NCBI GenBank assembly: GCA_031260295.1
Contig: JAIRKE010000001.1
Coordinates: forward strand, 1-64,000
Reading direction: 5' to 3'
Source: Azonexus sp.
Lineage (GTDB): Bacteria > Pseudomonadota > Gammaproteobacteria > Burkholderiales > Rhodocyclaceae
Length of the DNA: 64,000 nt
Part shown: positions 46,993 to 64,000 of the stretch, piece by piece
Position numbering within the stretch: position 1 is the first letter of the stretch
How the letters are laid out: each line of letters begins with the position of its first letter
The notes under the pieces: generated by a model
Database searches by the model: none
Told to the model about the DNA's origin: nothing
The model's input: only the letters and a program-made list of their open reading frames with translations
Program-made: the position numbers and the translations under genes

Positions 46993-48060
46993 TCAAGCCA
47001 GCCGTTCCGGCAGCACGTCGCGCAGCAATACGGCAGCGTCGCGGATCATTTTCTCGGTGGTGTCCCAGGCGACGCAGCCGTCGGTGACCGAGCAGCCGTA
47101 CTTGAGTTGCAACAGGTCGGCCGGGATTGGCTGGTTGCCGGCCTCGATATTCGATTCGATCATCAGGCCGAGCAGCGATTTGTTGCCATTGCGAATCTGG
47201 TTAACCACATCGGCCATGACCAGCGGTTGCAGTTCTGGCTTCTTGTAGCTGTTGGCATGCGAGCAGTCGACGACGATGTTTGCCGGCAGCTTGGCTTTGG
47301 TGATGGCTTCCTCGGCGATGGCGACCGCCACGGCATCGTAGTTGGGTGCGCCATCGCCGCCGCGCAGCACGACATGGCCGTAGGCGTTGCCGGTGGTGCG
47401 GACGATGGAGACGCAGCCGTCGTTGTTCAGGCCGAGGAAGGAGTGCGGGTTGGAAGCCGACAGGATGGCGTTGGTGGCTACCGTCAGGTCGCCGCTGGTG
47501 GCGTTCTTGAAGCCGACCGGCGTGGACAGGCCGGAGGACATTTCGCGGTGGGTCTGCGATTCGGTGGTGCGGGCACCAATGGCCGTCCAGGTAATCAGGT
47601 CGCCGTAATACTGCGGGCCGTAGGGGTCGAGCGCCTCGGTACCGGCGGGTAGCCCCAGTTCGTTGACTTGCAGCAGGAACTGGCGGGCCCGCTCCATGCC
47701 AACATCGACCCGGAAGGAATCGTCCATGAACGGGTCGTTGATATAGCCCTTCCAGCCGACGGTGGTGCGCGGCTTCTCGAAATAGACGCGCATGATGATC
47801 TGCAGCGTGTCGCTGACTTCATCGGCCAGTCCCTTCAGGCGGCGCGCATAGTCGAGGCCGGCCACCGGGTCATGAATGGAGCAGGGGCCAACGACGACGA
47901 ACAGCCGATGATCCTTGCGGTCGAGGATGTTGCACAGCAGTTCCCGGCCGTGGCTGACGGTGGCTTCGGCCTTGGCGCTCAGCGGCAGGCGGGCGTGGAT
48001 CTCGGCCGGAGTCGGCATGGGGTCGAATGCCGATACGTTGATGTTTTCGATCTTGGTCAT
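46993..48060 (-). CDS. aroG: 3-deoxy-7-phosphoheptulonate synthase (class I DAHP synthase)
   Basis: First step of the shikimate pathway, condensing PEP and erythrose 4-phosphate. 355 residues, AroF/G/H type: FVVVGPCSIHDPVAGLDYAR, MRVYFEKPRTTVGWKGYIND, GARTTESQTHREMSSGLSTP and IVVDCSHANSYKKPELQPLV contain the metal and substrate ligands. Which aromatic amino acid inhibits it cannot be read with certainty. ATG 48060 overlaps the stop of the mfd-derived fragment, so aroG was probably once coupled to mfd. Only four bases separate it from the GFA gene. Confidence 0.97.
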   Translation of the reverse strand: MTKIENINVSAFDPMPTPAEIHARLPLSAKAEATVSHGRELLCNILDRKDHRLFVVVGPCSIHDPVAGLDYARRLKGLADEVSDTLQIIMRVYFEKPRTTVGWKGYINDPFMDDSFRVDVGMERARQFLLQVNELGLPAGTEALDPYGPQYYGDLITWTAIGARTTESQTHREMSSGLSTPVGFKNATSGDLTVATNAILSASNPHSFLGLNNDGCVSIVRTTGNAYGHVVLRGGDGAPNYDAVAVAIAEEAITKAKLPANIVVDCSHANSYKKPELQPLVMADVVNQIRNGNKSLLGLMIESNIEAGNQPIPADLLQLKYGCSVTDGCVAWDTTEKMIRDAAVLLRDVLPERLA

Positions 48061-48197
48061 TGGGTCAGTTCCCGAATCATGTTCTTGACCGCCGCGACCT
48101 TGTCGTTGAGGCCGGGACAGTGGGGTAAAAGAAGAATTCTATCCCGTCCGGCTAGCTTATAGCTGCGGTTCTTCTCGATCAGGTGGATGATCCGATC
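48057..48197 (-). pseudogene. Displaced 3'-terminal fragment of mfd
   Basis: Translated on the minus strand this stretch reads IIHLIEKNRSYKLAGRDRIL and PGLNDKVAAVKNMIRELTQ then stop, against IIHLIQKNRSYKLAGQDKIS and PGLNDKVAAVKEMVRELTR in the intact mfd at 53684. By hand, 36 of 44 residues and about four in five bases agree. The similarity starts abruptly near 48197 and ends with the stop codon, which overlaps the aroG ATG. There is no start codon of its own. It marks the left edge of island 1; see findings. Confidence 0.9.
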
Positions 48198-48297
48198 CAG
48201 TCCGGCCTGAACTCGGGGGTGAATAGCAAAAAAACGATGCTGTCCTGTTTGCGGCTATTTTGCCGAACTGGCAGGCTCTGAACCCTGAAACCTGTCG

Positions 48298-49521
48298 TCA
48301 AAGTACATGCGAAACCAGCCCGTCGGCCAGTTTCGGTTCGAACCAGGTCGATTTGGGTGGCATCACCTGGCCGGCGTCGGCGACGGCCATCAAATCTTTC
48401 AGGCTGGTGGGATAGAGCGCGAAGGCGGCGGCCATCTCGCCGCTATCCACACGCTTTTCCAGTTCGGCGAGGCCGCGTATGCCGCCGACGAAATCGATGC
48501 GCTTGTCGCGGCGTAAATCGGTGATGCCAAGCACCGGGCCGAGCAGGTGTTCGGAGAGCAGGCTGACATCGAGCCGCGCGACCGGATCGCTGACGAACAG
48601 TTTGGGGTCGATGTTGAGCCGGAACCAGCGGCCCGGCAGGTAGAGGCCGACTTCGCCCGGGCAGGTGGGCTTCGCTGCGCCGATGGCGGGTGAAACCGCG
48701 TAGGTCTTGGCGATCCTGGTCAGGAATTCGGCTTCGGTGAGGCCGTTGAGATCCTTGATCACGCGGTTGTAGTCCATGATCTTCATCTGGTGATGCGGGA
48801 AGATCACAGCGAGGAAATAATCGCTGTCCTGCTCGACCCCCGATTTGCGGCGGGCGGCGGCAACGCGCGAGGCGGCGGCGGAACGATGGTGCCCGTCGGC
48901 GATGTAGAGCGCGGGCATGGTCTCGAAGGCAGCCGTGATGTCGCCGATAAGCTTGTCGTCCGCAATGACCCAGATGGTGTGGCGAATGCCGTCGTCGGCT
49001 GTCACCGAAGCTACCGGCGAGCCGGCGCAGGCGAGCGCGAGCAGGGCATCGGCCTTGCGCGAATCGGGATAGGCAAGCAGCACCGGGCCGGTCTGGGCGT
49101 TGAGCGCGTCGATCTGGCGCACGCGGTCGTCTTCCTTGTCCGGGCGCGTGAATTCGTGTTTCTTGATGCGGCCCGCGTCATAGGCTGCGACCGAGGCAGC
49201 GGCGACAAAGCCGGTTTGTGCATGGTCGCCCATCTCGATGCGATAGGCGTAGTACGACGGCTGGCTGTCGCGGCACAGGATACCGGCTTGCAGCATTTTC
49301 GCCAGATTCTCGGCCGCCTTGGCATAAACGGCGGGCGCGTAAGGATCGGTGCCGACCGGCAGGTCGATCTCGGGTTTGGAGATATGCAGAAAGGACCAGG
49401 GCTTACCGGCGGCGCGCTGGCGTGCCTCGTCCGTGGAAAGCACATCGTAAGGCGGGGCGGCGACGTCGGCGGCGTGCCGGGGCACGGGGCGCAGACCACG
49501 GAAGGGCTTGATGAGAGACAT
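48298..49521 (-). CDS. DUF1015 family protein
   Basis: 407-residue cytoplasmic protein of unknown function. Family blocks: IKPFRGLRPVPRHAADVAAP with PPYDVLSTDEARQRAAG, RIKKHEFTRPDKEDDRVRQI, TMPALYIADGHHRSAAASRV (the conserved DGHHR motif) and FPHHQMKIMDYNRVIKDL. It shows nuclease/kinase-like conserved His and Asp but no tested activity. DUF1015 genes often sit near serine biosynthesis genes; serB is 2 kb away. It is the leftmost gene of island 1, pointing toward the mfd fragment. Confidence 0.92.
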   Translation of the reverse strand: MSLIKPFRGLRPVPRHAADVAAPPYDVLSTDEARQRAAGKPWSFLHISKPEIDLPVGTDPYAPAVYAKAAENLAKMLQAGILCRDSQPSYYAYRIEMGDHAQTGFVAAASVAAYDAGRIKKHEFTRPDKEDDRVRQIDALNAQTGPVLLAYPDSRKADALLALACAGSPVASVTADDGIRHTIWVIADDKLIGDITAAFETMPALYIADGHHRSAAASRVAAARRKSGVEQDSDYFLAVIFPHHQMKIMDYNRVIKDLNGLTEAEFLTRIAKTYAVSPAIGAAKPTCPGEVGLYLPGRWFRLNIDPKLFVSDPVARLDVSLLSEHLLGPVLGITDLRRDKRIDFVGGIRGLAELEKRVDSGEMAAAFALYPTSLKDLMAVADAGQVMPPKSTWFEPKLADGLVSHVL

Positions 49522-49883
49522 GATGTAATTATCCGGTTATTTTTCTATTTGAAAATAAAGCGAAGCTGACCCCATGGCGCTGTTAGGTGATGGCGTAGAT
49601 GAGCACCGTTAAATTCGATGCTGACCCCTCAGGTATTTGACCCTCTGGGTTTAGATTGTAATGGCGAAGGCTGCTGCCAACCTGCCCGTTCGCATTTCAA
49701 CGACCTCAAGGTTAAATATGCCGCATGAGATAACCCTTAATTGCTGGGTCAATAGCCTAATACAGCCTGTTCTCCGGTATGCTCGTGGCAACACAGACGG
49801 CGACACAGCACGGGCGCAAAGGCTGAATAATCCCGATGTGCGATAAGTTGATGACGTGCGCATTCGGTCCGGAAGGAAAAATC
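49522..49883. other. Divergent intergenic region within island 1
   Basis: About 360 bases between DUF1015 and the Sel1-repeat gene, AT-richer than the surroundings. It holds two near-identical words, GCTGACCCC at 49566-49574 and 49621-49629, and short open frames without ribosome-binding sites. It should contain both promoters; none is convincing. No transposase remnant was recognised. Confidence 0.5.
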
Positions 49884-52835
49884 ATGCAATCACTTCGACA
49901 CCCTATCCGCATTTTTTTGATCAGCCTTGCCGTAGTAGCTGCATTGGTATTTTCCATCCAGGCGCTGGCTGCACTGACAGTAGGACAGACGAACGTCCTC
50001 GAAACCAAAGCGGCATCAGGTGATAAAACCGCTTTGGAAACGCTGGTGACCGAGGCGCAAAAGGGAGATGAGTATGCTCAATTCATTTTGGGCACTCTTT
50101 ATCACCACGGCAAAGGCATTCCCCAGGATTACGGCCAAGCGTTGCAGTGGTACCGCAAGGCAGCAGAGCAAGGGAGCGACGTTGCACAAAACAACTTGGG
50201 CATTCTCTATAGAAATGGCGAAGGCGTTCCCAAAGATGACAACCAGGCGGCAGTGTGGTGGCGCAAAGCAGCGGAACAGGGATATGCCACTGCGCAGGCT
50301 AACCTGGGTGTTCTCTACCACTTAGGTCAAGGCGTTTCCCAAGACGACAGCCAAGCGGCACAGTGGTTCCGCAAGGCGGCGGAGCAGGGAAACACCGATG
50401 CGCAGTTCAACCTGGGTGTTCTCTATCACGGCGGCAAAGGCGTTCACCGGGACGACAGCCAAGCAGCCCGGTGGTGGCACAAGGCGGCGGAGAAGGGAGA
50501 CGCCAGCGCGCAGACCAACCTGGGCACGCTCTATAAGAACGGTTGGGGGGTTCCCCAAGACTACGGCCAGGCTGCACTGTGGTGGCGCAAGGCAGCCGAA
50601 CAGGGGGACGCCGACGCGCAGAAACCCCTGGGTTTTCTATATGACGCTGGCCAAGGCGTTCCCGAGGACACTACTCTGGCAGCGCAGTGGTACCACAAGG
50701 CGGCGGAGCAGGGGGATGCCAAGGCGCAGTACGATCTGAGTGTACGCTATGTCGCCGGTCGGGGTGTCAGTCAAGACTATGCTCAGGCAATGCTGTGGCT
50801 TCGCAAGGCGGCGGAGCAGGGATATACCACTGCGCAGAGCGATTTGGCTTCTCTCTATGCGCAGGGGAAACGAGGCGTCCCCCGAGATTATAGTCAAGCG
50901 GCGCTGTGGTACCGAAAGGCGGCAGAACAGGGGGATGCCGGAGCGCAATGTAGCCTTGGCTTTCTCTATAAAAACGGCCAAGGCGTTCGCCAAGACCATG
51001 CCGAAGCTGTGCAGTGGTTCCGCAAAGCGGCAGGACAGGGAAATATCACCGCGCAGTTCGCCTTGGGCGCTCTCTATGAGAAAGGCCAAGGCGTTCCCCA
51101 GGATTACGGACAAGCGGCGCAGTGGTACCGTAAGGTGGCAGAGCGGGAGGGCATGGTGGGAGTGCCGATAGTCGCCGAGGCGCGGAACAGTCTGGGCCTT
51201 CTCTACGTCAACGGCCAAGGCGTTCCTCAGGATCATGCTCAAGCGGCACAATGGTTTCTCAAGGCGGCGGAAGGGCAAAACGTCGAAGCGTGGAACAACC
51301 TCGCTCTTCTTTATCAAAACGGCCAGTGGGTACCCCGGGACTATGTTGAAGCAGCGCAGTGGTACCGTGAGGCAGCGAAGCAAGGGCACGGCTTAGCGCA
51401 GGAGAGACTGGGTTTTCTCCATGCCAACGGCTTGGGTGTTCCTCGTAGCGAGGTGGTCGCCTACGCCTTGTATAGCCTGTCAGCCAAGCAGAATCCGTCA
51501 GGTAGAAATCCCGCATGGAAAAGCCGTTCGCAGCTTGCCAAAGGCATGGCTGAACAGGAAATCAAGGCTGGGGAGGTGCTGGCCGGGGAAATGAGCAAGC
51601 CGAACAATTTCGACAATGCCTTGCGTCAATACTTGGCGCAATATGTTGCGCCTGCGGAATCCTTATTGCTTCAGTGCGATAACGATTCCTTTGATTCTCG
51701 CCGACCGCCGCAAAACTCGACCACAAATCAGAATACTTCGAGTCATTGGGCAGAACTGCCAATAACCTTTCCAAAAACTGCGGTAAGCCACATAGCCACC
51801 TATCGCCCTGGGCGAAACCCCAATCGTGTGGTTACTATTACGCGCCATGGAGCCTTGGTGCGAACAGAGTCGCTTGATACCGGATCATCCGGCAAAGATG
51901 AGGGTAAGCATACCATTATGTATTCAAATTTGGCGACTGGCGCCAGTGTCAGGACGGCCATCAGCAAAAATCAGCAGGCTATAGAAGCCAGTCTGAGAAA
52001 CCAGACCCTGGAAAAATCAGTAGCAGGAAAACAGCCTTATACCCTATCTCGCACCGGATCTGAAATGATTGCAGGTGAGCGTTGCAATATTATCTTTGCG
52101 GAGCCATCTGCCGATGATAGGGCGGGAGTAACTCACTCAGCCTGTGTCACAGATGATGGCGTGGTTCTGCGCGACACAGCATATTACGGCAGCGGTAAAG
52201 TCATGAGCGAGTCCGTGGCGGTAAAGGTTGAGCGAGTGCCTGTCGATGAGCAAAAGGTACTTCCGCCACGCGATCTTCTCGACTGGGCGAAATGGGATAA
52301 TTTGCCAATTACCAAGGACTCCATCTGGACTGCGCAAAAAAACTATACCTTGATGCTTGTTGCCACAAAAGAAATAAAAAACGCTTCGATGGCCCAGACG
52401 TTGAAAGCGGACACCGTTTCGTCTTCAGAAATAAAATGCTTGAATGGAATAATGGATACACTATGGATTGCGGCACCAAAAAAACAGCTTTCATTCATAT
52501 CTGAACGCATGTTGTCCATAACGATGCGTCAAGATTATTCGCCTTTAAAACATTTTCGTAATGAAGCGCCATTACCCAAACCCGATGGCTGGGTACTGAA
52601 GGAATCATGCCAATGGACTAATACTGGCGTTAATGTGGCAGACTACTCCCGAACGGAATGCCGTACAAATGACGGCCTTCCTCTGCTTGTCGAGGAAAGA
52701 TCAATGGGTGGTGGAGCCAATTGGGTTGCGACCAAACTTGAACGCGGTCGGAACTCACCCGGCAGCATTGCGCCACCATCTGGTTTGCTGAATTGGGATT
52801 ACTGGGGTTGGCCCCAACTCGCAACCAAAAAGTAG
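49884..52835 (+). CDS. Exported Sel1-repeat (TPR-like) protein with a duplicated C-terminal module
   Basis: 983 residues from ATG 49884 (Shine-Dalgarno GGAAGGA). A signal peptide (IFLISLAVVAALVFSIQALA) is followed by thirteen 36-residue Sel1-like repeats (about 60-545) of the form AQxxLGxLYxxGxGVPQDYx, then AAxWYRKAAEQGD. The remainder (about 600-983) lacks repeats and contains two related modules: each has a Cys pair, DGL/DGV, an ER motif and ends in LL(D/N)W..W. This half is A/T-richer than neighbours. Sel1 proteins are interaction scaffolds; the C-terminal part is unassigned. Probably periplasmic or surface-exposed. Confidence 0.88.
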   Translation: MQSLRHPIRIFLISLAVVAALVFSIQALAALTVGQTNVLETKAASGDKTALETLVTEAQKGDEYAQFILGTLYHHGKGIPQDYGQALQWYRKAAEQGSDVAQNNLGILYRNGEGVPKDDNQAAVWWRKAAEQGYATAQANLGVLYHLGQGVSQDDSQAAQWFRKAAEQGNTDAQFNLGVLYHGGKGVHRDDSQAARWWHKAAEKGDASAQTNLGTLYKNGWGVPQDYGQAALWWRKAAEQGDADAQKPLGFLYDAGQGVPEDTTLAAQWYHKAAEQGDAKAQYDLSVRYVAGRGVSQDYAQAMLWLRKAAEQGYTTAQSDLASLYAQGKRGVPRDYSQAALWYRKAAEQGDAGAQCSLGFLYKNGQGVRQDHAEAVQWFRKAAGQGNITAQFALGALYEKGQGVPQDYGQAAQWYRKVAEREGMVGVPIVAEARNSLGLLYVNGQGVPQDHAQAAQWFLKAAEGQNVEAWNNLALLYQNGQWVPRDYVEAAQWYREAAKQGHGLAQERLGFLHANGLGVPRSEVVAYALYSLSAKQNPSGRNPAWKSRSQLAKGMAEQEIKAGEVLAGEMSKPNNFDNALRQYLAQYVAPAESLLLQCDNDSFDSRRPPQNSTTNQNTSSHWAELPITFPKTAVSHIATYRPGRNPNRVVTITRHGALVRTESLDTGSSGKDEGKHTIMYSNLATGASVRTAISKNQQAIEASLRNQTLEKSVAGKQPYTLSRTGSEMIAGERCNIIFAEPSADDRAGVTHSACVTDDGVVLRDTAYYGSGKVMSESVAVKVERVPVDEQKVLPPRDLLDWAKWDNLPITKDSIWTAQKNYTLMLVATKEIKNASMAQTLKADTVSSSEIKCLNGIMDTLWIAAPKKQLSFISERMLSITMRQDYSPLKHFRNEAPLPKPDGWVLKESCQWTNTGVNVADYSRTECRTNDGLPLLVEERSMGGGANWVATKLERGRNSPGSIAPPSGLLNWDYWGWPQLATKK

Positions 52836-52914: not shown

Positions 52915-53331
52915 TCAATCAAGCATCCAGTCCAGCAAACGCAGGCCGGGGCTGTCTTTGAAATCGCGCGTGTTATGCGTCACCAGCGTCAGGTTTTCCG
53001 CCAGCGCGTGAGCGGCGATTTGCGTATCCATGTCGCCACGGAGCGTCCCCTGATTGCGGTGATGGCTTTTCAGTGCGCCAAAATGGTCGGCGGCGCTGAC
53101 GGTCCACGGCAGGCAGGGTATCTGGCGCAAGAACATATCAATCAACTCGCGCCGACGATCCACTGCTTCCATCAACGCCTGTCCGTAGCGCAGTTCAGCC
53201 CGCGTCAGCACCGAAATCGCGCAAGTCTGCTCACGCAATGCCTCCCCCATCGCCTTTTCCAGCGCGGGTGATGTCCGCCGCAGGTAATAGCTGACAATGT
53301 TGGTGTCCAGCAAGTAGATCAACGGGTTCAT
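52915..53331 (-). CDS. vapC: VapC-type PIN-domain toxin
   Basis: 138-residue ribonuclease toxin of a type II toxin-antitoxin pair. PIN acidic residues: Asp in IYLLDTNIVSYYLRR, Glu in LTRAELRYGQAL, Asp in LRGDMDTQIAAHALAENL and Asn/Asp in VTHNTRDFKDSPGLRLLDW. ATG 53331 overlaps the vapB stop (ATGA), as usual. The target RNA is unknown (initiator tRNA or rRNA in studied relatives). It lies in island 1 next to mfd. Confidence 0.93.
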   Translation of the reverse strand: MNPLIYLLDTNIVSYYLRRTSPALEKAMGEALREQTCAISVLTRAELRYGQALMEAVDRRRELIDMFLRQIPCLPWTVSAADHFGALKSHHRNQGTLRGDMDTQIAAHALAENLTLVTHNTRDFKDSPGLRLLDWMLD

Positions 53332-53594
53332 GGTTGATCTATGTCAAAGGGGCTGCCCCTGGGGGTGTCGGCGCGAGGCAAAAGAAATTCGTCGCTGTTC
53401 CTGGGCACGGCTTCCAGCAAGGAAAAAAACGCCTCCAGCACCTCCGGCTTGGGCTTGGGTTGGAGCAGGATTTCCCCCGTAGCTTCATTTTGCGTTATCC
53501 AGACCGCATCGACATCGAGCCGAAAAGACTTGGGCAGACGCACAGCCTGACTGTTGCCACTGGTAAAAACCCTGGCGGTAGCGAGTGTGTTCAT
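53328..53594 (-). CDS. vapB: VapB antitoxin (SpoVT/AbrB type)
   Basis: 88-residue antitoxin. The N-terminal AbrB-like DNA-binding domain is TARVFTSGNSQAVRLPKSFR with LDVDAVWITQNEATGEILLQ; the C-terminal part wraps the toxin (FDIDQP). First gene of vapBC; a small palindromic stretch ACGTATAAGTATATACGT at 53617-53634 just upstream is a likely autorepressor site. Confidence 0.92.
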   Translation of the reverse strand: MNTLATARVFTSGNSQAVRLPKSFRLDVDAVWITQNEATGEILLQPKPKPEVLEAFFSLLEAVPRNSDEFLLPRADTPRGSPFDIDQP

Positions 53595-53683: not shown

Positions 53684-56600
53684 CTACCGGGTCAATTCCC
53701 GCACCATCTCTTTCACCGCCGCCACCTTGTCGTTCAAGCCGGGGCAGTGGCGCAATAGAGAAATTTTGTCCTGCCCGGCCAGCTTGTAGCTGCGGTTCTT
53801 CTGGATCAAATGGATGATCTTGATCGGCTCGATGGGCGGATTCCGGGTGAATTCCGGGCTGAACTGGATGGTCACCTGATCGTGGGTCGCATCGAGCTTG
53901 GCGATCAGCAGTGGCTTGACCAGCAGGCGCAGGCGGTGCGTGGCCAGCAGCGACTGCGCTTGCAACGGCAGTTCGCCGAAACGGTCGATCAGTTCTTCCT
54001 GCAGCATGTCGATGTCCGTGCTGGACTCGCAGTTGGCCAAGCGCTTGTACAGCGTCAGGCGCTCGTGTACGTCGGGACAGTAGGCGTCGGGCAGCAGGGC
54101 CGGCGTGCGCAGATTGATCTCGCCGCTGACGCCGATCGGCTGCGTCAGGTCGGCGGTCTCCAGCACCTTGCCCTGTTTCAGGTGGGCGACGGCGCGGTTG
54201 AGCATCTCGGCATACATATTGAAGCCGACTTCCTGCATCTCGCCCGACTGGTTGTCGCCGAGCACCTCGCCGGCACCGCGAATTTCCAGATCGTGCATGG
54301 CGAGGAAGAAGCCGGAGCCGAGCTCCTCCATCAGTTGGATGGCCTCCAGGCGCTGCTTCGCCTGCTTGGTCATGGTCTTGTCGTCCTGTACCAGCAGGTA
54401 GGCGTAGGCCTGATGGTGCGAGCGGCCGACGCGGCCGCGCAACTGGTGCAACTGGGCGAGGCCGAATTTCTCGGCGCGGTTGATCAGGATGGTATTGGCG
54501 TGCGGATTGTCGATGCCGGTCTCGATAATGGTCGTGCACAACAGCAGGTTGGCGCGCTGGCCGGTGAAGTCGCGCATCACCCGCTCCAACTCGCGCTCAT
54601 TCATCTGGCCGTGGCCGATGACGATGCGCGCTTCCGGCACCAGCTTTTCCAGCCTGTCGCGCATGTTGGCGATGGTGTCGACCTCGTTATGCAGAAAGTA
54701 CACCTGGCCGCCGCGCTTCAATTCGCGCAGCACCGCCTCACGGATGATGCCGTCGGACAGCCGCGAGACGAAGGTCTTGATGGCCAGCCGCTTCTGCGGC
54801 GCCGTGGCGATTACCGAAAAGTCGCGCAGCCCCTCCATGCTCATCGCCAGCGTGCGCGGGATCGGCGTCGCCGTCAGCGTCAGCACGTCGACCTCGGCAC
54901 GCATGGCCTTCAGCGTTTCCTTCTGGCGTACGCCGAAGCGGTGTTCCTCGTCGATGACGACCAGGCCCAGGCGGCCAAAGCGGACCTCCTTGCCAATCAG
55001 CTTGTGGGTGCCGATGATGATGTCGATCTGGCCGTCAGCCAGTTCCTTGAGCGCCTGTGCCGATTCCTTGGCGGTTTTGAAGCGGGAGATTTCGGCGATT
55101 CTCACCGGCCAGTCGGCGAAGCGGTTCACGAAGGTCTGGTAATGCTGCTCGCAGAGCAGCGTTGTCGGGCACAGTACGGCCACCTGCTTGCCGCCGGCTA
55201 CCGCGCAGAAGGCGGCGCGTAGCGCCACCTCGGTCTTACCGAAGCCGACGTCGCCGCAAACCAGCCGGTCCATCGGCTTGCCCGATTTCATGTCCTCGAT
55301 CACCGCGGCGATGGCGGCTGCTTGGTCGGCGGTTTCTTCGAAGCTGAAACCGTCGGCGAAAGCCTCGTAGTCGCTGTCCTTGAAGGCGAAGGCATGGCCT
55401 TGGCGGGCGGCGCGGGCGGCATAGAGCGCCAGCAATTCGGCGGCCGTGTCGCGCGCCTGTTCGGCTGCCTTCCTCTTGGCCTTTTCCCACTGCTCGGAAC
55501 CGAGCGTGTGCAGCGGCGCGGCATCAGGATCGGCGCCGGAGTAGCGTGAGATCACCTGCAACTGCGCCACCGGCACGAACAGCTTGGCATCGTTGGTGTA
55601 ATGCAGTTCGAGGAATTCCTGCTCGCCCAACCCGAGATCCATGCGTACCAGACCGCGGTAGCGGCCGATACCGTGGCTCTCGTGCACTACCGGATCGCCG
55701 ACCTTGAGTTCGGTCAGATCCTTCAGCCAGTTGTCGAAGCTGGCCTTTCTGGCCGCCTGACGGCGGTTGCGGCGCGGGCTGCCGGCGAACAGCTCGGTTT
55801 CGCTGACGAAGGCGATGGCTTCCAGGGAAAACCCCGCCTGTAGCGGGCCGATGCCAAGCGCCAGCTTGGCGTCGCCGGCGAGGAAAGCGGCCAGGTCGGC
55901 ACAAGCGGCAGGCGCCAGGCCGTGCTCGGCGAACATCGCGGCCAGCGTTTCGCGCCGGCCAGCAGTTTCGGCGATCAGCAACACGCGCTCTGGCGAACTG
56001 GCTAAATACTGCTTCAGGGCGCCCAACGGGTCTTCGGCGCGGCGGTCGATGGCGACATTAGGCAGTTGTCCGGCCGTAGCCGCTGTGCGCTCGGGCAAGG
56101 CCAGACGGGGGTAACCCTTGGCCGCGCTGAAAAAGGCTTCGTCGGTCAGGAACAGTTCTTCCGGCGCCAGCAGCGGCCGCCCCTTGTCACCTTGCAGCAG
56201 GGTGTAGCGCGAACGGGTATCGCTCCAGAAGGCGGCGATGGCGGCCGGCACATCGCCGTGGGTGACGAAGAGGGCGTCCTGCGGCAGATAATCGAACAGG
56301 GTCGCCGTCGCATCGAAAAACAGCGGCAGGTAATACTCGATGCCGGCACTGGCAATGCCGGTCGAAACATCCTTGTAAATGCCGGACTTGGCCGGGTCGC
56401 CCTCGAAGCGCTCGCGGAAAGCCTGGCGGAAATGCGTGCGCCCCTTCTCATCCAGCGGGAATTCACGGGCTGGCAGCAGGCGTATTTCCGGCACCGGATA
56501 GACGGTGCGCTGGGTGTCGACATCGAAAGTCTTGATGCCCTCGATCTCGTCGTCGAACAGATCGAGCCGGTAGGGCAGTTGCGCGCCCATCGGGAACAGG

Positions 56601-57127
56601 TCGATCAGGCCGCCGCGGACCGCGTATTCGCCAGGCGACACGACCTGCGTGACGTGAGCATAGCCGGCCAGTCCGACCTGGGTGCGGAACTTCTCGGCGT
56701 CGAGCTTCTGCCCCTTCCTGAATGCGAAGGTGTAGGCGGCCATGAATTCCGGTGGCGCCAAGCGGTTGACGGCGGTCGCCGCCGGCACCAGCAGGATGTC
56801 CAACTCGCCCTGCATGGCGGCCCATAGTGTTGCCAGGCGCTCGGAGACGAGATCCTGGTGCGGCGAAAAGTGGTCGTAGGGCAGAGTCTCCCAGTCCGGC
56901 AGCAGGCGCACGCGCAGTTGCGGCGCGAACCACGGTATTTCGTCGAGCAGGCGCTGGGCATCGGCGGCGCTGGCGGTAACGACGGCCAGCAAGCGGCCGG
57001 CGCCGGCGGCCGTCGCGGCCAAGATCAGGGCATCGCCGGAACCGGCCAGCGGCGGCAGATCGAGCCGATGGCCGGGCTTCGGCAGGGCCGGTAGGAAAGA
57101 GTGGGGGAGCAGGGGAGAAGCGGACAC
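53684..57127 (-). CDS. mfd: Transcription-repair coupling factor
   Basis: SF2 translocase that removes stalled RNA polymerase and recruits UvrA. 1147 residues from GTG 57127, the normal length; an open frame reaches 57214, but a TATAAT at 57161-57166 (minus strand) would place the transcript start after that. UvrB-like N-terminus (LLPDWETLPYDHFSPHQDLV), RNA-polymerase-interacting domain (VGDPVVHESHGIGRYRGLVR), Walker A LVCGDVGFGKTEVALRAAF, DEEHRFG, TLTATPIPRTLAMSM and RGRVGRSHHQAYAYLL, then the TRCF domain. Its 3' end is partly duplicated at 48057-48197. Confidence 0.97.
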   Translation of the reverse strand: MSASPLLPHSFLPALPKPGHRLDLPPLAGSGDALILAATAAGAGRLLAVVTASAADAQRLLDEIPWFAPQLRVRLLPDWETLPYDHFSPHQDLVSERLATLWAAMQGELDILLVPAATAVNRLAPPEFMAAYTFAFRKGQKLDAEKFRTQVGLAGYAHVTQVVSPGEYAVRGGLIDLFPMGAQLPYRLDLFDDEIEGIKTFDVDTQRTVYPVPEIRLLPAREFPLDEKGRTHFRQAFRERFEGDPAKSGIYKDVSTGIASAGIEYYLPLFFDATATLFDYLPQDALFVTHGDVPAAIAAFWSDTRSRYTLLQGDKGRPLLAPEELFLTDEAFFSAAKGYPRLALPERTAATAGQLPNVAIDRRAEDPLGALKQYLASSPERVLLIAETAGRRETLAAMFAEHGLAPAACADLAAFLAGDAKLALGIGPLQAGFSLEAIAFVSETELFAGSPRRNRRQAARKASFDNWLKDLTELKVGDPVVHESHGIGRYRGLVRMDLGLGEQEFLELHYTNDAKLFVPVAQLQVISRYSGADPDAAPLHTLGSEQWEKAKRKAAEQARDTAAELLALYAARAARQGHAFAFKDSDYEAFADGFSFEETADQAAAIAAVIEDMKSGKPMDRLVCGDVGFGKTEVALRAAFCAVAGGKQVAVLCPTTLLCEQHYQTFVNRFADWPVRIAEISRFKTAKESAQALKELADGQIDIIIGTHKLIGKEVRFGRLGLVVIDEEHRFGVRQKETLKAMRAEVDVLTLTATPIPRTLAMSMEGLRDFSVIATAPQKRLAIKTFVSRLSDGIIREAVLRELKRGGQVYFLHNEVDTIANMRDRLEKLVPEARIVIGHGQMNERELERVMRDFTGQRANLLLCTTIIETGIDNPHANTILINRAEKFGLAQLHQLRGRVGRSHHQAYAYLLVQDDKTMTKQAKQRLEAIQLMEELGSGFFLAMHDLEIRGAGEVLGDNQSGEMQEVGFNMYAEMLNRAVAHLKQGKVLETADLTQPIGVSGEINLRTPALLPDAYCPDVHERLTLYKRLANCESSTDIDMLQEELIDRFGELPLQAQSLLATHRLRLLVKPLLIAKLDATHDQVTIQFSPEFTRNPPIEPIKIIHLIQKNRSYKLAGQDKISLLRHCPGLNDKVAAVKEMVRELTR

Positions 57128-57238
57128 GGCGGAGCGGGTGCTGCGGCTGGCGGGGGAGGGATTATAGCCGCTGCCCAATTTACTACTACACACCCGCAGG
57201 AACATGGTTGACAATAGGCTCAGGAGGAAACCATCACC

Positions 57239-58903
57239 ATGCCCCCCCTCGCTGCGGACACCGAACCCACCTCTGCGCCCCCAGTGGATCTGCTGTCAGG
57301 ACTGGTTTTTGTGCAGGATGGAAAAACCGTTCTGGCCAGTTTTGAACCTGCCACGCTTCCTCCCGAAACTTCCCAGACCGCGCTGACGACGGCCGTTGCC
57401 TCTGCCTTGGACCGTGCTGGTTTTGGCGCTTGCCGGGTCAGGGATGAGGCGCTTGTCGAGCTATCTCGAACGATAAGCGCGGGGCATCCCGTGGCGGCCT
57501 TTCCGGTAGCCGATGTCCTCGATGGCGAGGTATCGCTGACCTTTGACGCGGACCTCATGACTGCCACGTTGACGATCTTTCCGCCTCGGGGGGGCGATCC
57601 GGTTGATGAAAATGCCATTCACCGTGCCCTGGCCGAGCACAATGTCGTCTATGGCGTCGATGACGAAGCGATTCGCCAAGCCATCGCCTCGGCAGCAACG
57701 GGAACAGAGGGCGGAATCGTGGTCGCCCGTGGCAAAAAACCGGCGCACGGCCAGGATGGCCGTTTGCAATTGCTGCTGGAGATACGCTCGCGCGTGCCGC
57801 AGATCGATAGCAGTGGCCGGGTGGATTACCGCAATCTGGGCGACATCTTGACCGTCCAGGCTGGCACCCCGCTGCTGCGGCGAATTCACGCCACCCATGG
57901 CGAAGCGGGAAAAACCATTACCGGCCGCGATATTCCCGCCAAAAAGGGCAAGGATGTTGCCTTCTCGCACAAACTGGAAGGCGTATCCATTAACCCGAAA
58001 AACCTCGATGAATTGATCGCCGCGCAAGGCGGCCAGCCGGTCGAAGTGCTTGGCGGGGTAATGGTCGAGCCGACGTTTCAGTCGAAAAACGTCAATATCG
58101 CCACGGGAAATGTCGTTTTTGAAGGCTCGGTGACCATCGATGGCGATGTGCAGGCGGGCATGACCGTCAAGGCTGGCGGCGACATCGAAATCGGCGGCAC
58201 GGTCGAAGACGCCACGCTGGAGGCGGGCGGCAATATCCGAATCAAGGGGGGCGTAGTCGGTTCACTGGGCCACCCGGAAGCCGAACCCCGGCATATCCGT
58301 TGCAAAGGCAGTTTTTCGGCTGCGTTCGTACAACAGGCGGCCATTGACGCAGGGGAGGCCATCCTCATCGACGACTTTGCCATGTTGTGCCATCTCACTG
58401 CCGGGCAGCGGATCGTGATCGGCGATAAAAAACGCGGACTGCTGATTGGCGGCGTAGCGCGAGCAGGGATATTGGTCAAGGCCAGAGTGATTGGTTCGGC
58501 CGCCCAGACCGAAACCCGCATCGAAGTCGGCGACACACAGGAATTTCACAAGGAGCGGGATGCGATTGCCCACGTCCAGTCAGAAAAATCCGCACAACTC
58601 GGCAAGCTGGTGCAGTTAATGGCCGTCGGCAAAAAACAGCCAGAGCGCATGCCGCCGGGATTTATCGAAAAAGCCGAATCCAGCCGTCTGCATCTGCTTG
58701 AGGAACTGGAAGAACTAGGGCAACGCGCCGACTTGCTGCAACAACAGATGGATTTGGCCGCAACGGCCAAGGTAGAGATCGAATCAGGCGTTTTTGAAGG
58801 GGTGGTGATCCGGTGCGCAGGACAGATCTACCGGGTCAATGATCCGCGAAATCATGGCATGGTATTCGCGTTGGACGGAGAGGGAGGGTTGTCCTGGCGT
58901 TGA
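57239..58903 (+). CDS. DUF342 (FapA-like) domain protein
   Basis: 554 residues. FapA/DUF342 polymer-binding-like protein: a beta-helical core with repeated short Gly-rich strands (NVVFEGSVTIDGDVQAGMTV, AGGDIEIGGTVEDATLEAGG, GNIRIKGGVVGS) in about 270-370, flanked by N-terminal alpha/beta parts (GTPLLRRIHATHGEAGKTIT, GRDIPAKKGKD) and a C-terminal coiled coil (about 430-505). Members influence flagellar assembly or cell-surface regulation; no flagellar genes are nearby. AGGAGG Shine-Dalgarno at 57222-57227. Divergent from mfd and convergent with the glnD fragment. Confidence 0.9.
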   Translation: MPPLAADTEPTSAPPVDLLSGLVFVQDGKTVLASFEPATLPPETSQTALTTAVASALDRAGFGACRVRDEALVELSRTISAGHPVAAFPVADVLDGEVSLTFDADLMTATLTIFPPRGGDPVDENAIHRALAEHNVVYGVDDEAIRQAIASAATGTEGGIVVARGKKPAHGQDGRLQLLLEIRSRVPQIDSSGRVDYRNLGDILTVQAGTPLLRRIHATHGEAGKTITGRDIPAKKGKDVAFSHKLEGVSINPKNLDELIAAQGGQPVEVLGGVMVEPTFQSKNVNIATGNVVFEGSVTIDGDVQAGMTVKAGGDIEIGGTVEDATLEAGGNIRIKGGVVGSLGHPEAEPRHIRCKGSFSAAFVQQAAIDAGEAILIDDFAMLCHLTAGQRIVIGDKKRGLLIGGVARAGILVKARVIGSAAQTETRIEVGDTQEFHKERDAIAHVQSEKSAQLGKLVQLMAVGKKQPERMPPGFIEKAESSRLHLLEELEELGQRADLLQQQMDLAATAKVEIESGVFEGVVIRCAGQIYRVNDPRNHGMVFALDGEGGLSWR

Positions 58904-58945
58904 GCCGGGCAACTGGCCGGGTAGCTCATTCGGTAAATTCCAGGC

Positions 58946-59030
58946 TCAAACCTTGAGCCGCTCCATCAGTTCGGTTTCCAGGCGGATGCGGCTGGCGCTC
59001 TCGTGCAGGTCGCCGCCGCTGATCAGGATG
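58946..59030 (-). pseudogene. Displaced 3'-terminal fragment of glnD
   Basis: On the minus strand this reads [20 protein letters not shown] then LMERLKV and stop, against [27 protein letters not shown] in the intact glnD at 62956. By hand 24 of 27 residues and 75 of 83 bases agree, without gaps. Similarity ends sharply at about 59030, inside the last codons of the malonyl-CoA decarboxylase gene, whose TGA lies within the fragment. No start codon. It is the left edge of island 2; see findings. Confidence 0.9.
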
Positions 59031-60426
59031 TTGCCGCGCCCTTGGCGGCGCGGCGTACGTTGGCGCTCTGATCGATTTTTCCTTCCTGCAACAAAGCCTC
59101 GATATTGCGTTCGATATTGTCCGGATCGTAGAGATAATTCACCATCATCCCGTAGGACTGCGCCAGCCCTTTCTCGGACGTATCGCCGAGATAATTGAGC
59201 CGCTCGACGCGGGCGCCGTTGCCGAGATGGAAGCTCGCCACCGGATCAAGCGGACGCTCGCCTTTTTCCGGCGCGATCCTTTTTGCATTGACCAGATAAT
59301 TTGCCGCCAGCCTGGTCAGCGGCGTTTGCAGCAGACGTTTGAGTCGCTCGTCCTCGAACCAGCGCGGCCTCTCCAACAGCGCGGCCAGCGCCTCGCGCTG
59401 CGCCTCGATCTCCACGGCTTTGGCGATGCGCGCCAGTTCGCTGTCGTCGATCGCGTGCCGCCATGCCGCCTCGTTGTTTTGCGCCCAGCGGCGCAAGCCC
59501 GGCAGCGGCGACAAGGTGGCAAAGGTCGACAGGCGCGGCAGGTCTTGTTGCAGATCGTCGATCACCCGTTTCAGCAAAAAATGGCCGAAACTGACGCCGC
59601 GCAAACCCGTTTGCGTATTCGAAATGGAATAGAAAATCGCGGTGTTAGCGCGTCGGACATCGAAAATTGGCGCCTGCTCGTCGAGCAGGCTCTGCACGTT
59701 GTCGGCGAGATCGTTGACCAGCGCGACTTCCACGAAGATCAAGGGATCATCCGGCATGCGCGGATGAAAAAAGCCGTAGCAGCGGCGGTCGGAATCGAGA
59801 CGGTTCTTGAGATCGGCCCAGGAGCGGATTTCATGCACGGCTTCGTAGCGGATCAGCGTTTCCAGAACTGCCGCCGGCGTGTGCCAGGTCAGGCGCTTCA
59901 ATTCGAGAAAACCGACATCGAACCAGGCGCCAAAACGGTTTTCCAGCTCGCGGTCGAGCGCCGCCAGCGCTGGATCGTTTTTCATGTAACGCAACAGATC
60001 GCTACGCAGATCGACGAGGAATTTGACTCCCTGCGGCAGCGCGTTGAACTGCGTCAGAATGCGCAGCCGGGGGGAACGCAGCGCCGCCCGCAATGCCGCC
60101 TCGGCGTTCCACTGCGCCGGGGTGCCAGACGCCTGCTGCCATGCATTGTGCGCCGCCTCGACTTTTTTCGGGTCGGGGCCGAATTCATGCACGATCAGGC
60201 TGAGAAAATTTTTGCGCCCCGCATCGCCAAGCTTCATATAAATCTCGCCCAGCCGTGCGGCGCGCTGCCGCGTCGACACCTCGCCGCCAAGATTGGCGGC
60301 GCAATCGTGCAGCAAGGCGAGAATTTTCTGGGTTTCCTTGTCGCTCAACTCCGCCTTTTCCGGCGCGGCATGCGTCCACAGTTTCCTGACCTGGGAGAGG
60401 CCACGCTTCATCAGATCTTTCGGCAT
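59023..60426 (-). CDS. Malonyl-CoA decarboxylase
   Basis: Converts malonyl-CoA to acetyl-CoA and CO2. 467 residues of the MCD family: helical N-terminal domain (about 1-150), then a GNAT-like catalytic domain with FVEVALVNDLADNVQSLL, FYSISNTQTGLRGVSFGHFL (catalytic Ser/Thr region) and SFHLGNGARVERLNYLGDTS followed by GLAQSYGMMVNYLYD (catalytic His and Tyr). The last residues RAAKGAATS run into the duplicated glnD end, so its C-terminus may have been set by that junction. Stands alone: no malonate transporter or synthetase nearby. Confidence 0.94.
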   Translation of the reverse strand: MPKDLMKRGLSQVRKLWTHAAPEKAELSDKETQKILALLHDCAANLGGEVSTRQRAARLGEIYMKLGDAGRKNFLSLIVHEFGPDPKKVEAAHNAWQQASGTPAQWNAEAALRAALRSPRLRILTQFNALPQGVKFLVDLRSDLLRYMKNDPALAALDRELENRFGAWFDVGFLELKRLTWHTPAAVLETLIRYEAVHEIRSWADLKNRLDSDRRCYGFFHPRMPDDPLIFVEVALVNDLADNVQSLLDEQAPIFDVRRANTAIFYSISNTQTGLRGVSFGHFLLKRVIDDLQQDLPRLSTFATLSPLPGLRRWAQNNEAAWRHAIDDSELARIAKAVEIEAQREALAALLERPRWFEDERLKRLLQTPLTRLAANYLVNAKRIAPEKGERPLDPVASFHLGNGARVERLNYLGDTSEKGLAQSYGMMVNYLYDPDNIERNIEALLQEGKIDQSANVRRAAKGAATS

Positions 60427-60563
60427 TTGTCTTTATCCTCTAGCGCAATCGACGTCTTTATGCAAACGCCGGAACGAACGGACCGGCTCCTGTTCGAAGA
60501 TAACCCAGAAGAAGCTTCCTTCGAGCACTCCGACGCGCGCATCCGAGTGTTTTTGACAGAGCC

Positions 60564-60605
60564 TTGACGGAGTATATTGTGTTAATGATAATTATTCTCA
60601 TTAAC
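60564..60605 (+). promoter_or_regulatory. Promoter with Fur box before the outer-membrane protein gene
   Basis: TGATAATTATTCTCA (60586-60600) matches the 7-1-7 Fur core at 14 of 15 positions and lies within a 25-bp palindrome (GTTAATGA...TCATTAAC, 60581-60605). It covers a promoter TTGACG (60564-60569), 18 bases, GATAAT (60588-60593). Iron-replete Fur should repress the gene that follows. Confidence 0.85.
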
Positions 60606-60622
60606 ATCAAGGGAGGTGCCCA

Positions 60623-61408
60623 ATGTCCCGCTTCGCTTGCAAGCGCTCCGTGCTTTTCTCTTTCGCCATGTCAGCTGCGTTTTCGGCATCGGCCATGCTG
60701 CCGTTGATCACCGATGACGCGGAGACGCAAGGTTCCGGCGGGCATCAACTCGAAGTGGCATACGACTGGAGCCGTAGTCGTTGGAGCGGGGAGAGCGAAC
60801 GAGTGGATTCCGTGCCATTGACCTATACCTATGGGTTGAAGGATGCCGTCGATATTTTTGTCGGTACCGACTACTCGATCATCCGGGCTCCCGGGAATCG
60901 CGCGCGCGGTTTTGGTAACACGGGAATTGGCCTCAAGTGGCGGTTTTTCGAAAACGAGGCTTCCGGCGTCAGCCTGGCCGTCAAGCCGGACGTGCTGATT
61001 CCCGTCGGCTCGCGGCGTGAGGAAAAGGGATTGGGTACCGGCCGGACTTCCGGTCACCTGACTCTGATCCTCAGCCAGAACCTGCCGTTCGGTGCGGTGC
61101 ATTTCAATGCCGGAGCCGGGTACGACCGTTTCCGCTACCGTCATTCGAACGACAACCAAAGGAACCGGCACTTCTCCGTGGCACCCATCTGGGATCTTTC
61201 AGGGCGCTGGAAGCTGGCAATGGACATGGGCATCGATCTGTCCTGCTCCGGCGGCGACACGGTGCGTTCGAAGTATGCCGAAATAGCCGCCATCCATTCG
61301 CCGAGCCCAAACCTCGACCTAGCGATCAGCTACATCCGGACGGTTGGCAGCGAGTACCCGGAATCGACGACTCACCAAGTGGTATCCGGAGTGACCTGGC
61401 GGTTTTGA
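60623..61408 (+). CDS. Iron-regulated outer-membrane beta-barrel protein of unknown function
   Basis: 261 residues. Signal peptide (RSVLFSFAMSAAFSASAM) followed by a barrel-like sequence of alternating strands: GGHQLEVAYDWSRSRWSG, SVPLTYTYGLKDAVDIFVG, GFGNTGIGLKWRFFENEASG, ending THQVVSGVTWRF with the terminal aromatic typical of outer-membrane barrels. About ten to twelve strands, like the MetA-pathway phenol-degradation/transporter-like group. AGGGAGG Shine-Dalgarno before ATG 60623. The strong Fur box suggests a role in metal or iron-limited conditions. Not a TonB receptor: no plug domain, too short. Confidence 0.82.
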   Translation: MSRFACKRSVLFSFAMSAAFSASAMLPLITDDAETQGSGGHQLEVAYDWSRSRWSGESERVDSVPLTYTYGLKDAVDIFVGTDYSIIRAPGNRARGFGNTGIGLKWRFFENEASGVSLAVKPDVLIPVGSRREEKGLGTGRTSGHLTLILSQNLPFGAVHFNAGAGYDRFRYRHSNDNQRNRHFSVAPIWDLSGRWKLAMDMGIDLSCSGGDTVRSKYAEIAAIHSPSPNLDLAISYIRTVGSEYPESTTHQVVSGVTWRF

Positions 61409-61448
61409 GTTTTTGCCGGAAGACAAGATCGATCCGGGGCGCTGCGGA

Positions 61449-62900
61449 TCAGGGCACGCTGTCTCGCGGCGGCGGCTCGTTGCCTGCCGCCGCCAGTCGC
61501 CGTCCGATGGCTTCGAGGTGCGGGCGGATCGCCTCGCCCTCGGACATTTGCGGTTCCGACAGGGTGTAGTCTTCTTCCCGCTCGCGCGCCTCCACCGTGC
61601 GGCGCGCCTGTTCGAAAGCGGCGGTGAAGGAATGGGTGTGGCGCAGCGCCTCGTCGAAATAGGCGCGGCCGAAGAAGGTCCAGTCCGCCTCATGGCTGCA
61701 TCCATGCGAATTGCGGTCGGCGCGGGCGGCACTGATGACCAGGGTGTGCGGGTCGGACAGGGGCTCGATGAAGCCGCCCGAATAACAGGCCGAAACAACG
61801 ACGACGCGGTTCTTGATGCCGGCGGCGTCGAGCAGTTCGCGCAGGCGTTGCGGCGTCAGTTCGTCGAATTTAAACGGCCATAGGCTCAGCGTGAAATGGA
61901 ATTCCGAAGAACCGTGCGAAGTCATGAAAAGGAACAGCACGTCCTTGTTCTGGTCCATCCGGCTTCCGATTGCCTTGAGCGCGTGTTCCAGCGCCGTGAC
62001 GCTGGCGACGGGGCGTTCCAGCACGGTGGCCGGATTGTTGACCAGCACGATGCTGCGTCCGGCGGTGCCGAAGCGTTCTTTGAACAAGGTTTCCACGCCC
62101 AGGACTTCACGCAGGAAAACGTCCTGGCCCGCATCGCCGCCGAAGGCGAGCAGATACAACTCTGGCACCTCCGGGCGGCTGGGCTGCACCTCCGCGAGCG
62201 CTTTTTCCAGCAGTTCCGGTTGGTGGTAGAGGATGGCTTCGCCACGGGTCAATTGCCAGCGGTCGCTGTAGGAAGATTCGCTGTCGCTGTAACTGTAACT
62301 GGGTTGCCACAGCCTGATCTCCGTCATGGCAAACCACATCGAGCCTGCCGAGAAAGCGCCAAGGAGGAGCGAGGCGAGGAGATATCTCGGCCAGGTCAGC
62401 CGGTAGATCCACCACAGGGCAGCGTACACGGCTGACAGATACCAGAGCAGCAGCGCGCAACAGATGCCCACGAGCAGCCAGTAGATAGGGACCTGTTCGT
62501 CGAACCAGGGCGCGGTCGGATCGATAAGAAAGACAAGCGGCGTTAGCATGAGAGCGCAGCACAGGGCCAGCGCCAGGGTCGCCACCATTCCTTCGAGGAC
62601 TCCGGCTGGCGCATCCTCCTTCTGCATTCGCGCGTAGCACCACATGCACAGCAGCAACAGCGGCATCCACCAGAGCTGGTAAGGCAATGCCTGGAGGTTG
62701 AATTCGCCGTCCCATCCCACTTGCTGGAGGTCGTAGATCAAGCCGATCAAGACGCCCAACAGCCACAACCAGACGATTTGCGGCACCGATGCGCGCAGAC
62801 GGTTGACCGCGTTTTTCCGGAATAGAAAAAACCCGATGCCGGCGCGCAGATTGCTCACCAGATCGCGTAGCGCGACGTTGATTACTGTTGGGGGCAACAT
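61449..62900 (-). CDS. Membrane-anchored C13 (legumain/caspase-like) cysteine peptidase
   Basis: 483 residues from ATG 62900 (GAAAGGA upstream). About five transmembrane helices fill residues 25-190 (VWLWLLGVLIGLIYDL, ALALCCALMLTPLVFLI, LLVGICCALLLWYLSAVY, LLASLLLGAFSAGSMWF). A peptidase C13 domain follows (about 240-480): LYLLAFGGDAGQDVFLREVL, catalytic His in LFLFMTSHGSSEFHFTL and catalytic Cys in VVVVSACYSGGFIEPLSD. The domain would face the periplasm or cytoplasm depending on helix count. Substrate and role are unknown; bacterial C13 members are candidates for regulated proteolysis. Last gene of island 2, next to glnD. Confidence 0.88.
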   Translation of the reverse strand: MLPPTVINVALRDLVSNLRAGIGFFLFRKNAVNRLRASVPQIVWLWLLGVLIGLIYDLQQVGWDGEFNLQALPYQLWWMPLLLLCMWCYARMQKEDAPAGVLEGMVATLALALCCALMLTPLVFLIDPTAPWFDEQVPIYWLLVGICCALLLWYLSAVYAALWWIYRLTWPRYLLASLLLGAFSAGSMWFAMTEIRLWQPSYSYSDSESSYSDRWQLTRGEAILYHQPELLEKALAEVQPSRPEVPELYLLAFGGDAGQDVFLREVLGVETLFKERFGTAGRSIVLVNNPATVLERPVASVTALEHALKAIGSRMDQNKDVLFLFMTSHGSSEFHFTLSLWPFKFDELTPQRLRELLDAAGIKNRVVVVSACYSGGFIEPLSDPHTLVISAARADRNSHGCSHEADWTFFGRAYFDEALRHTHSFTAAFEQARRTVEAREREEDYTLSEPQMSEGEAIRPHLEAIGRRLAAAGNEPPPRDSVP

Positions 62901-62955
62901 TGCCGTCCTTTCTCTATGCATATTTCCCTTTTTTTGCCGGATACCACAGCCGGGA

Positions 62956-64000
62956 TCAGATTTTGAGCCGCTCCATCAATTCCGTTTCCAGCCGGATGCG
63001 GCTGGCGCTGTCGTGGAGGTCGCCGCCGCTGATCAGGAAAACGTCCTCGGCCCGTTCGCCGAGCGTGGCGATCTTGGCCGTTTCCAGATTGGCACCATGC
63101 TGGGCCAGGATGGCGGCCACCGTGTACAGCAGGCCGGGACGGTCGGCGGCGACCAGCGAGAGGATGTAGTTGTCGCCGCGCTCGTCCTCGATGATCCGGG
63201 CTTCCGGCTTGATCGGGAAATGCTTGACCTGGCGCGACAGCAGTTTGGTCGGCGGCACGTCCGGCGGCCCCTGCCGGATCAGTCGTTGCTCCAGTTCGTG
63301 CTCAATGTAGGCGACCATCTCGCGGTGGGTGTCGCGTTCGAACACGTCGAGCACGACAAAGCTGTCGAGCGCGTAGCCGTGCGCGGTGGTGTGGATTTTG
63401 GCATCGACGATGCTGTAGCCGGCGCGGGCGAAGAAGCCGACGATGCGGGCGAACAGGTCGGGCTGGTCCTTGGTGTAGACCATCACTTGCATGCTGCCGT
63501 CCAGGTGCAGGCGGGCGCGGACGACCGGCTGGTTGTTGTGGATGCGGTAATACAGCGAACGCGTGTGCCAGGCGATTTCCTCGGCCGAATGGCGCAGGAA
63601 ATAGACGGTATCGAGCTGCTTCCACAGCCGTTCATGCACGGTGGCGGAGAGCGCGAAGTAGCGCAGCAGGCGCATCGCCTCGGTCTGGCGCTCGGCAATC
63701 ACGCCGTGGGCCGGCGGCACTTCGCCCTGGTGCAGGGTGTACAAGGTCAGATAGTAGAGATCGGCCAGCAGCCGGCCTTTCCACTGATTCCAGACCTTCG
63801 GGCTGGTGCCGCGGATATCGGCATGGGTCAGTAGGTAGAGCGCCGTCAGGTGGCGAACGTCGCCGACTCGGCGGGCGAAGCTGGCGATGACCTCGGGGTC
63901 GCTGAGGTCTTCCTTCTGGGCAATCTGCGACATGACCAGATGATTTCTGACCAGCCACACGACCAGTTCGCTGTCTTCGCCGGCCAGGCTGTGTTGTTCG
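62956..64000 (-). CDS. glnD: Bifunctional uridylyltransferase/uridylyl-removing enzyme, C-terminal part (partial)
   Basis: Nitrogen sensor that modifies PII proteins. The start lies beyond the window; about 348 residues are seen. They include the end of the HD-domain part ([40 protein letters not shown]) and two ACT domains ([40 protein letters not shown]) that bind glutamine. It ends [11 protein letters not shown]. Intact at its 3' end, yet the last ~27 codons are repeated at 58946-59030 across island 2. Confidence 0.95.

Follow-up and report, generated by a model that had tools for sequence, protein, structure and literature searches.

Do two neighboring gene blocks, each closed off by a partial copy of a core-gene end, bear witness to one mechanism that inserts DNA at gene ends? 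The question is raised by a 64,000-nucleotide (nt) stretch of an Azonexus sp. genome (GCA_031260295.1, contig JAIRKE010000001.1, positions 1–64,000), referred to below as the window. Here, a block of accessory genes lies directly after each of the intact genes mfd and glnD, and a short copy of the 3′ end of the same gene, the stub, lies on the far side of the block. The original prediction, made from the letters of the window, took the blocks for two islands built to the same plan and proposed an undescribed mode of integration. Our analysis points instead to insertions that most likely belong to a type described before in other bacteria and that probably differ in age. We favor the explanation that the two blocks are separate import scars left by general recombination rather than products of a new integration system, and hold it with about even confidence. 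The window genome is labeled G000 below, and its relatives G004, G013 and so on.

Partial copies of the mfd and glnD ends

A repeat search between positions 46,000 and 64,000 returned two gap-free direct repeat pairs, 48,062–48,192 with 53,689–53,819 (81% identity) and 58,940–59,028 with 62,950–63,038 (89%), which Pfam matches assign to mfd and glnD, in each case to the 3′ end. Aligned codon by codon, the mfd stub comprises 135 bases (45 codons including the stop) and is 78.5% identical to intact mfd, with 22 identical codons, 15 silent changes and 8 replacements; its TGA, at 48,057, overlaps the ATG of aroG. The glnD stub comprises 84 bases (27 codons plus the stop) and is 89.3% identical to the intact end, from which it differs at 9 of 84 nt, with two replacements and one more at the joint. 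Both stubs lie downstream of the intact genes on the same strand and keep their stop codons. Their translations match residues 1132–1176 of mfd (E = 2e-16) and 825–851 of glnD (E = 2e-8) in a search of 320 kb of the window's contig, and whole-genome protein searches gave values of 7e-17 and 6e-8. There is a weak hint, with a score reached by 4 of 200 shuffles, that a decayed part of the mfd stub extends further upstream.

The predicted anatomy, a far-side partial copy on the same strand with its stop preserved, is therefore real at both core genes. The gene directions inside the blocks are indeed parallel (-, +, -, - in block 1 and -, +, - in block 2), and no recombinase is visible: Pfam matched neither a recombinase nor a phage or conjugation/transfer family among the seven cargo proteins. 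In the G000 genome, five tyrosine-recombinase matches (PF00589, E <= 1e-10) and one resolvase match (PF00239) were found, all on other contigs; the window's contig has no match to either family at these settings, transposase families not being part of the genome-wide search. No Rfam family and no tRNA gene was found within 46,000–64,000, and the two tRNA genes of the window lie at 1700 and 12,700. The shared terminal motif that a common mechanism had been expected to leave did not emerge from six pairwise comparisons of four junctions. The best direct score of 20, between the near and far ends at glnD, was reached by 10 of 200 shuffles, and the best inverted score was 21, the shuffles having been made for direct scores only.

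Stubs and intact genes can differ in their last codons. Intact mfd of G000 ends in CGG TAG and its stub in CAA TGA; mfd of G013 and glnD of G014 are two residues longer than the stubs found in those genomes (see below), and glnD of G000 ends in the same way as its stub. A new stop codon was considered as a mark of the joint but set aside as weak, because stub-free relatives vary in both stop codon and tail length.

Probably different histories of the two sites

aroG lies within 30 nt of mfd, measured between match ends and with some of the genes overlapping, in 29 of the 30 relatives' loci that contain both; the exception is G013. The mfd stop codon and the start of aroG overlap, both in the window and in relatives including G008 and G031. 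Given this contact, the stub beside aroG represents the original mfd end, still at the ancestral site. G004, placed as sister to the window genome in trees of ettA (0.98), aroG (0.97), serB (0.98), glnD (0.98) and hscA (0.39), has the same stub: a 716-base alignment (89.8%) that begins in aroG reaches about 90 bases into the mfd stub before it breaks off. The G004 remnant is eroded and out of frame, and other core genes such as zapD follow; mfd was not found in the G004 genome, which is 79% complete. Since G000 and G004 have the mfd stub in common, it is most likely older than their split.

G013 follows next after G004 in the ettA, hscA and glnD trees, and G013, G022 and G033 join in those of aroG, serB and mfd. 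In G013, an mfd stub of about 36 codons adjoins aroG, with mfd 1.8 kb away. A tree built on 129 nt places this stub as sister to G013's own mfd (0.60) inside the G013/G022/G033 group (0.98), and both G000 copies in one wider clade (0.90). This grouping argues, if modestly, for an independent event in G013 and makes a stub-bearing ancestor common to G013 and G000 unlikely. We rejected the idea that the intact mfd tail came from a sister genus, the tails of G222, G283, G060 and G185 being of another type. In these four genomes, which belong to other genera, 0.7 to 3.7 kb with further frames separate aroG from mfd, one frame in G060 being PIN-like by eye; the space between aroG and mfd may thus receive insertions more widely.

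The glnD stub stands in different surroundings. Azonexus, Dechloromonas and other Rhodocyclales make up most of the named relatives that glnD brought up. Of 29 relatives whose glnD context could be read, 19 have the usual downstream cluster with a PF01048 phosphorylase and nine have another context; in G014 the gene is at a contig edge. The rest of the usual cluster presumably consists of genes with flagellar-type names. The window has the fapA-like gene beside the stub and the C13-type peptidase gene beside intact glnD, and by this comparison of gene contexts the stub is judged to occupy a non-ancestral site. A glnD stub beside the usual phosphorylase was not seen in G000 and seven relatives (loci of 2.4 to 3.8 kb). 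The G000 locus with this phosphorylase (on contig C7) ends in the start of a frame that resembles, by eye, an insertion-sequence transposase. Contacts seen in the window recur elsewhere: C13 also adjoins glnD in G013 (80.4% identity over 1421 nt), so that contact is old, and fapA is also near glnD in G004, where no glnD stub was seen in the glnD region with fapA. Because G004 has the mfd stub, in eroded form, but no glnD stub was seen there, and because the glnD stub of G000 still encodes an undamaged GlnD tail, the two events are probably of different ages. One plan common to both islands, as originally predicted, finds no support in a pair in which one stub marks an ancestral site and the other a non-ancestral one.

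The glnD alleles hint at a foreign contribution. In the tree, G027 and G026 follow G013, and G022 lies elsewhere. Over its 84 nt, the stub is 91.7% identical to G026, 89.3% to G027, 83.3% to G004 and 79.8% to G013, and the intact end is 91.7% identical to G004 and 90.5% to G013; these few positions suggest, tentatively, that the stub is a non-sister allele. Intact glnD is closest to G004 along most stretches, but a patch about 360–680 nt before the stop is G026-like (score reached by 41 of 2000 shuffles; 95.9% to G026 vs 89.2% to G004 in a 198-nt segment, and 95.9% vs 87.8% at -672) and could reflect gene conversion. Taken together, the stub allele and the patch hint at exchange with G026-type DNA at glnD.

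In G014, a glnD stub of about 81 codons lies beside the usual phosphorylase on contig C5, with the intact gene at the edge of contig C15. Between the two copies, 13 codons differ synonymously and three otherwise, the latter lying no more than five codons from the ends. As the copies lie on two contigs of a bin with 5% contamination, they may derive from two strains or from a binning artefact. The point at which the glnD stub starts is thus not constant: it lies 27 codons from the stop in G000 and about 81 in G014, if G014 does not mix two strains. A glnD tail fragment in G009 (L113:3593-3701) was dropped, since it lies at a contig edge followed by an inverted glnD piece; it may be an assembly artefact or a fold-back.

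Possible routes of insertion

In the explanation that we favor, chromosomal-type DNA would have joined a core gene at its 3′ end in such a way that the gene stayed readable and a second gene-end piece was left at the far side of the block. General recombination without a dedicated recombinase would be the most likely route. Either a fragment carrying the gene tail would have circularized and entered by one crossover in that tail, or homology would have anchored one end of the fragment and illegitimate joining sealed the other. Single crossover of circularized DNA and homology-facilitated illegitimate recombination are both described in PMC3240628; the events there are reported from the laboratory, whereas donor and joining step in the window are a reconstruction. 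Selection would remove any join that damaged the core gene, and the mfd stub would have been retained because the region before the aroG start lies within it. The suggestion in the original prediction that cargo arrives by recombination with a terminal gene stub comes close to this explanation; its single shared plan does not.

The origin was traced for one of the seven cargo genes, that for the DUF1015 protein of block 1. The window copy is 67.5–71.2% identical to four copies from the genus, which are 77.2–83.4% identical among themselves, and G222, from another genus, reaches 78% at DUF1015 compared with 71% at aroG and 68% at mfd. The window copy thus looks imported, although the four genus copies could be the odd ones, G222 having been compared with the window copy only. 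In those four genomes (G005, G014, G015 and G024), DUF1015 adjoins aroG in the order serB-DUF1015-aroG-mfd; a search for the family across 22 genus genomes recovered it in three besides the window, and in 10 outside genomes it lies next to aroG in five and next to mfd in two. In the window, the place between serB and aroG that holds DUF1015 in the four relatives is taken by a GFA-family gene (46,557–46,988).

Several observations weigh against recombinational import, in addition to the doubt over which DUF1015 copies are odd. A donor with a gene tail joined to the same cargo was not found in 30 mfd loci and 29 glnD contexts, G013 offering the glnD-C13 contact only; we thus infer the recombination anchor, as we infer which of the two glnD copies is the resident one. 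That contact already exists in G013, and no crossover is visible in the intact glnD tail: its last 300 nt lack a donor tail, G004 ranking first, alone or tied, in all five segments compared. The allele argument at glnD comprises 84 nt. At mfd, the common clade of both G000 copies (0.90, 129 nt) is compatible with duplication in place. Finally, stubs at mfd and glnD in relatives exceed what random import would lead one to expect.

In-place duplication was indeed our initial favorite, because of the serB-DUF1015-aroG-mfd order in the four relatives. A local tandem duplication of DUF1015, aroG and the mfd tail, with a breakpoint inside the gene and loss of most of the extra copy, would leave a stub among shuffled neighbors, and DUF1015, which adjoins aroG or mfd in seven of the 10 outside genomes as well, could be such a shuffled local gene. 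The trees agree in that G000's mfd copies share a clade and G013's are sisters. However, the window DUF1015 is not close to the four genus copies and is closer to other genera, the block beside intact mfd yielded no aroG remnant, and the clade of the intact allele is not the one nearest to the glnD stub. We now regard this origin as unlikely.

We would likewise give little chance to the blocks being remnants of integrative elements, prophages or islands, that inserted at the 3′ ends of genes by a site-specific recombinase, brought along a new end for the gene and later lost the recombinase and most of their own genes. The model is e14 in icd of Escherichia coli K-12, which according to PMC11148124 has the same anatomy: an intact gene with a replaced 3′ end and, at the far side, a partial copy (icdC). 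There the duplication spans 165 bp, and its 12 nt changes bring two conservative replacements and keep the frame intact. Differences between stub and gene give a mixed picture here: they are mostly synonymous in G014 (13 vs 3 codons), less so at G000 mfd (15 vs 8), and at G000 glnD include two replacements among 9 changed nt, plus one at the joint. Stubs also recur at mfd in G013 and at glnD in G014. The displaced gene end differs from the stub in three of four cases (G000 mfd, G013 mfd, G014 glnD), a weak sign given the variation among stub-free relatives. e14, however, has an integrase and phage genes. The window blocks have none among their seven cargo proteins, their contig lacks PF00589 (E <= 1e-10) and PF00239 matches, stub starts vary between genomes at the same gene, and no clear motif is shared. 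Because a recombinase and a fixed stub start are both lacking, we do not file the islands as elements of the e14 type. Core protein genes as insertion sites are also known from integrative and conjugative elements beside guaA, radC and dusA (PMC8627217). Those elements are conjugative or mobilizable, and the window's cargo matches no recombinase or transfer family.

The undescribed mechanism of the original prediction, one targeting 3′ ends of core genes in the genus, appears very improbable. In its favor, stubs occur at two genes and in four genomes in all: mfd stubs in G000 (a stub that G004 shares) and G013, glnD stubs in G000 and G014. No other convincing case turned up in 677 open reading frames (ORFs) of G000 or in 1682 ORFs of 154 partly redundant loci. 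Yet mfd and glnD were sought by name, which biases the recurrence, and the stub and intact gene of G014 stand on separate contigs of the contaminated bin. The two stubs are unlike in length and in how they are shared, neither block holds a recombinase, stub starts vary at one gene, junctions have no clear common motif, and e14 provides a precedent. A somewhat better but still poor chance attaches to the idea that the mfd and glnD 3′ ends are recurrent landing places in Azonexus/Dechloromonas, with independent stubs at mfd (in the G000/G004 ancestor and in G013) and at glnD (in G000 and G014), and that the overlap of mfd stop and aroG start forces gene-end duplication in every tolerated insertion. 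If so, gene pairs that overlap as mfd and aroG do would let one state clearly where an insertion has to leave a gene-end scar, and the scars could serve as dated markers of DNA import. If separate recombinational imports are the answer, neighboring islands with duplicated gene ends are a striking look-alike produced by separate, ordinary events.

Surveys and block contents

The proposed check, a scan for further headless 3′ fragments, covered 865,000 bases (29%) of the G000 genome and used 677 ORFs of at least 120 amino acids, at least 55% identity, E <= 0.01 and a distance within 40 kb on one contig, settings that miss decayed stubs. Only mfd and glnD emerged as convincing cases of a same-strand 3′ stub separated from its gene by a block, and no third was seen; relatives did add mfd in G013 and, unless it is a binning artefact, glnD in G014. 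With two ages probable and no clear common boundary motif, part of what had been named as speaking against a shared origin was thus found. Two random points in 865 kb fell within 15 kb of each other in 3.4% of trials, so the closeness of the stubs is mildly unusual; the mfd/glnD neighborhood is also variable across the clade. Among the 154 loci, each at least 6 kb, partly redundant and picked around mfd, glnD and DUF1015, the G013 mfd stub was the sole such case; further matches were one of 53% in L335 and 5′ matches at two more places.

Other matches in the G000 scan were rejected. A 156-amino-acid AraC-type ORF about 35 nt after a 320-amino-acid AraC-type gene, 73% identical to its C-terminal part (C50:226401-227868), is a tandem partial paralogue. 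A 141-amino-acid ORF on C27 with two same-strand 3′ matches (36 and 23 residues, 61 and 70%) lies in a stretch with internal repeats, and three places with 5′ matches (two on C25, one on C27) occur; all were read as repeats or paralogues.

Table 1. Genes and stubs around the two blocks of the window
Feature	Position	Strand	Basis
aroG, 3-deoxy-7-phosphoheptulonate synthase, ancestral downstream neighbor of mfd	46993..48060	-	NCBIfam TIGR00034 above cut-off
mfd 3′ stub, ancestral site	48057..48191	-	Repeat and protein matches
DUF1015 protein, block 1 cargo	48298..49521	-	PF06245
Sel1-repeat protein, block 1 cargo	49836..52835	+	PF08238, 13 stretches
VapC-like PIN-domain protein, block 1 cargo	52915..53331	-	PF01850; VapC models (NCBIfam) below cut-offs
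VapB-like antitoxin, block 1 cargo	53328..53594	-	PF04014 at cut-off; VapB models (NCBIfam) below cut-offs
Intact mfd, start codon uncertain	53684..57214	-	TRCF, MFD_D3, CarD_TRCF_RID and helicase domains
fapA-like gene, beside glnD stub	57239..58903	+	PF03961, PF20250
glnD 3′ stub, starts within last codons of malonyl-CoA decarboxylase (MCD) gene	58946..59029	-	Repeat and protein matches
MCD, block 2 cargo; TGA within stub sequence	59023..60426	-	PF05292, PF17408
Outer-membrane-like protein (Phenol_MetA_deg), block 2 cargo	60623..61408	+	PF13557
C13-type peptidase, block 2	61449..62921	-	PF01650
Intact glnD, 3′ part; gene extends to contig position 65511	62956..64000	-	GlnD_UR_UTase, ACT, HD

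MCD has its C-terminus at about the same place in two relatives as in the window, which puts the joint of the glnD stub at the last MCD codons. PADLOC returned a single match, of 48 residues of the Sel1-repeat protein to PtuA (E = 7e-12), which we do not read as a defence gene. The record WQUQ01 (locus L241), which belongs to G004 and is titled Desulfobulbus sp. isolate Cu122P5bin47, carries core genes of the Azonexus/Dechloromonas group and is sister to the window genome; its Desulfobulbus label looks wrong.

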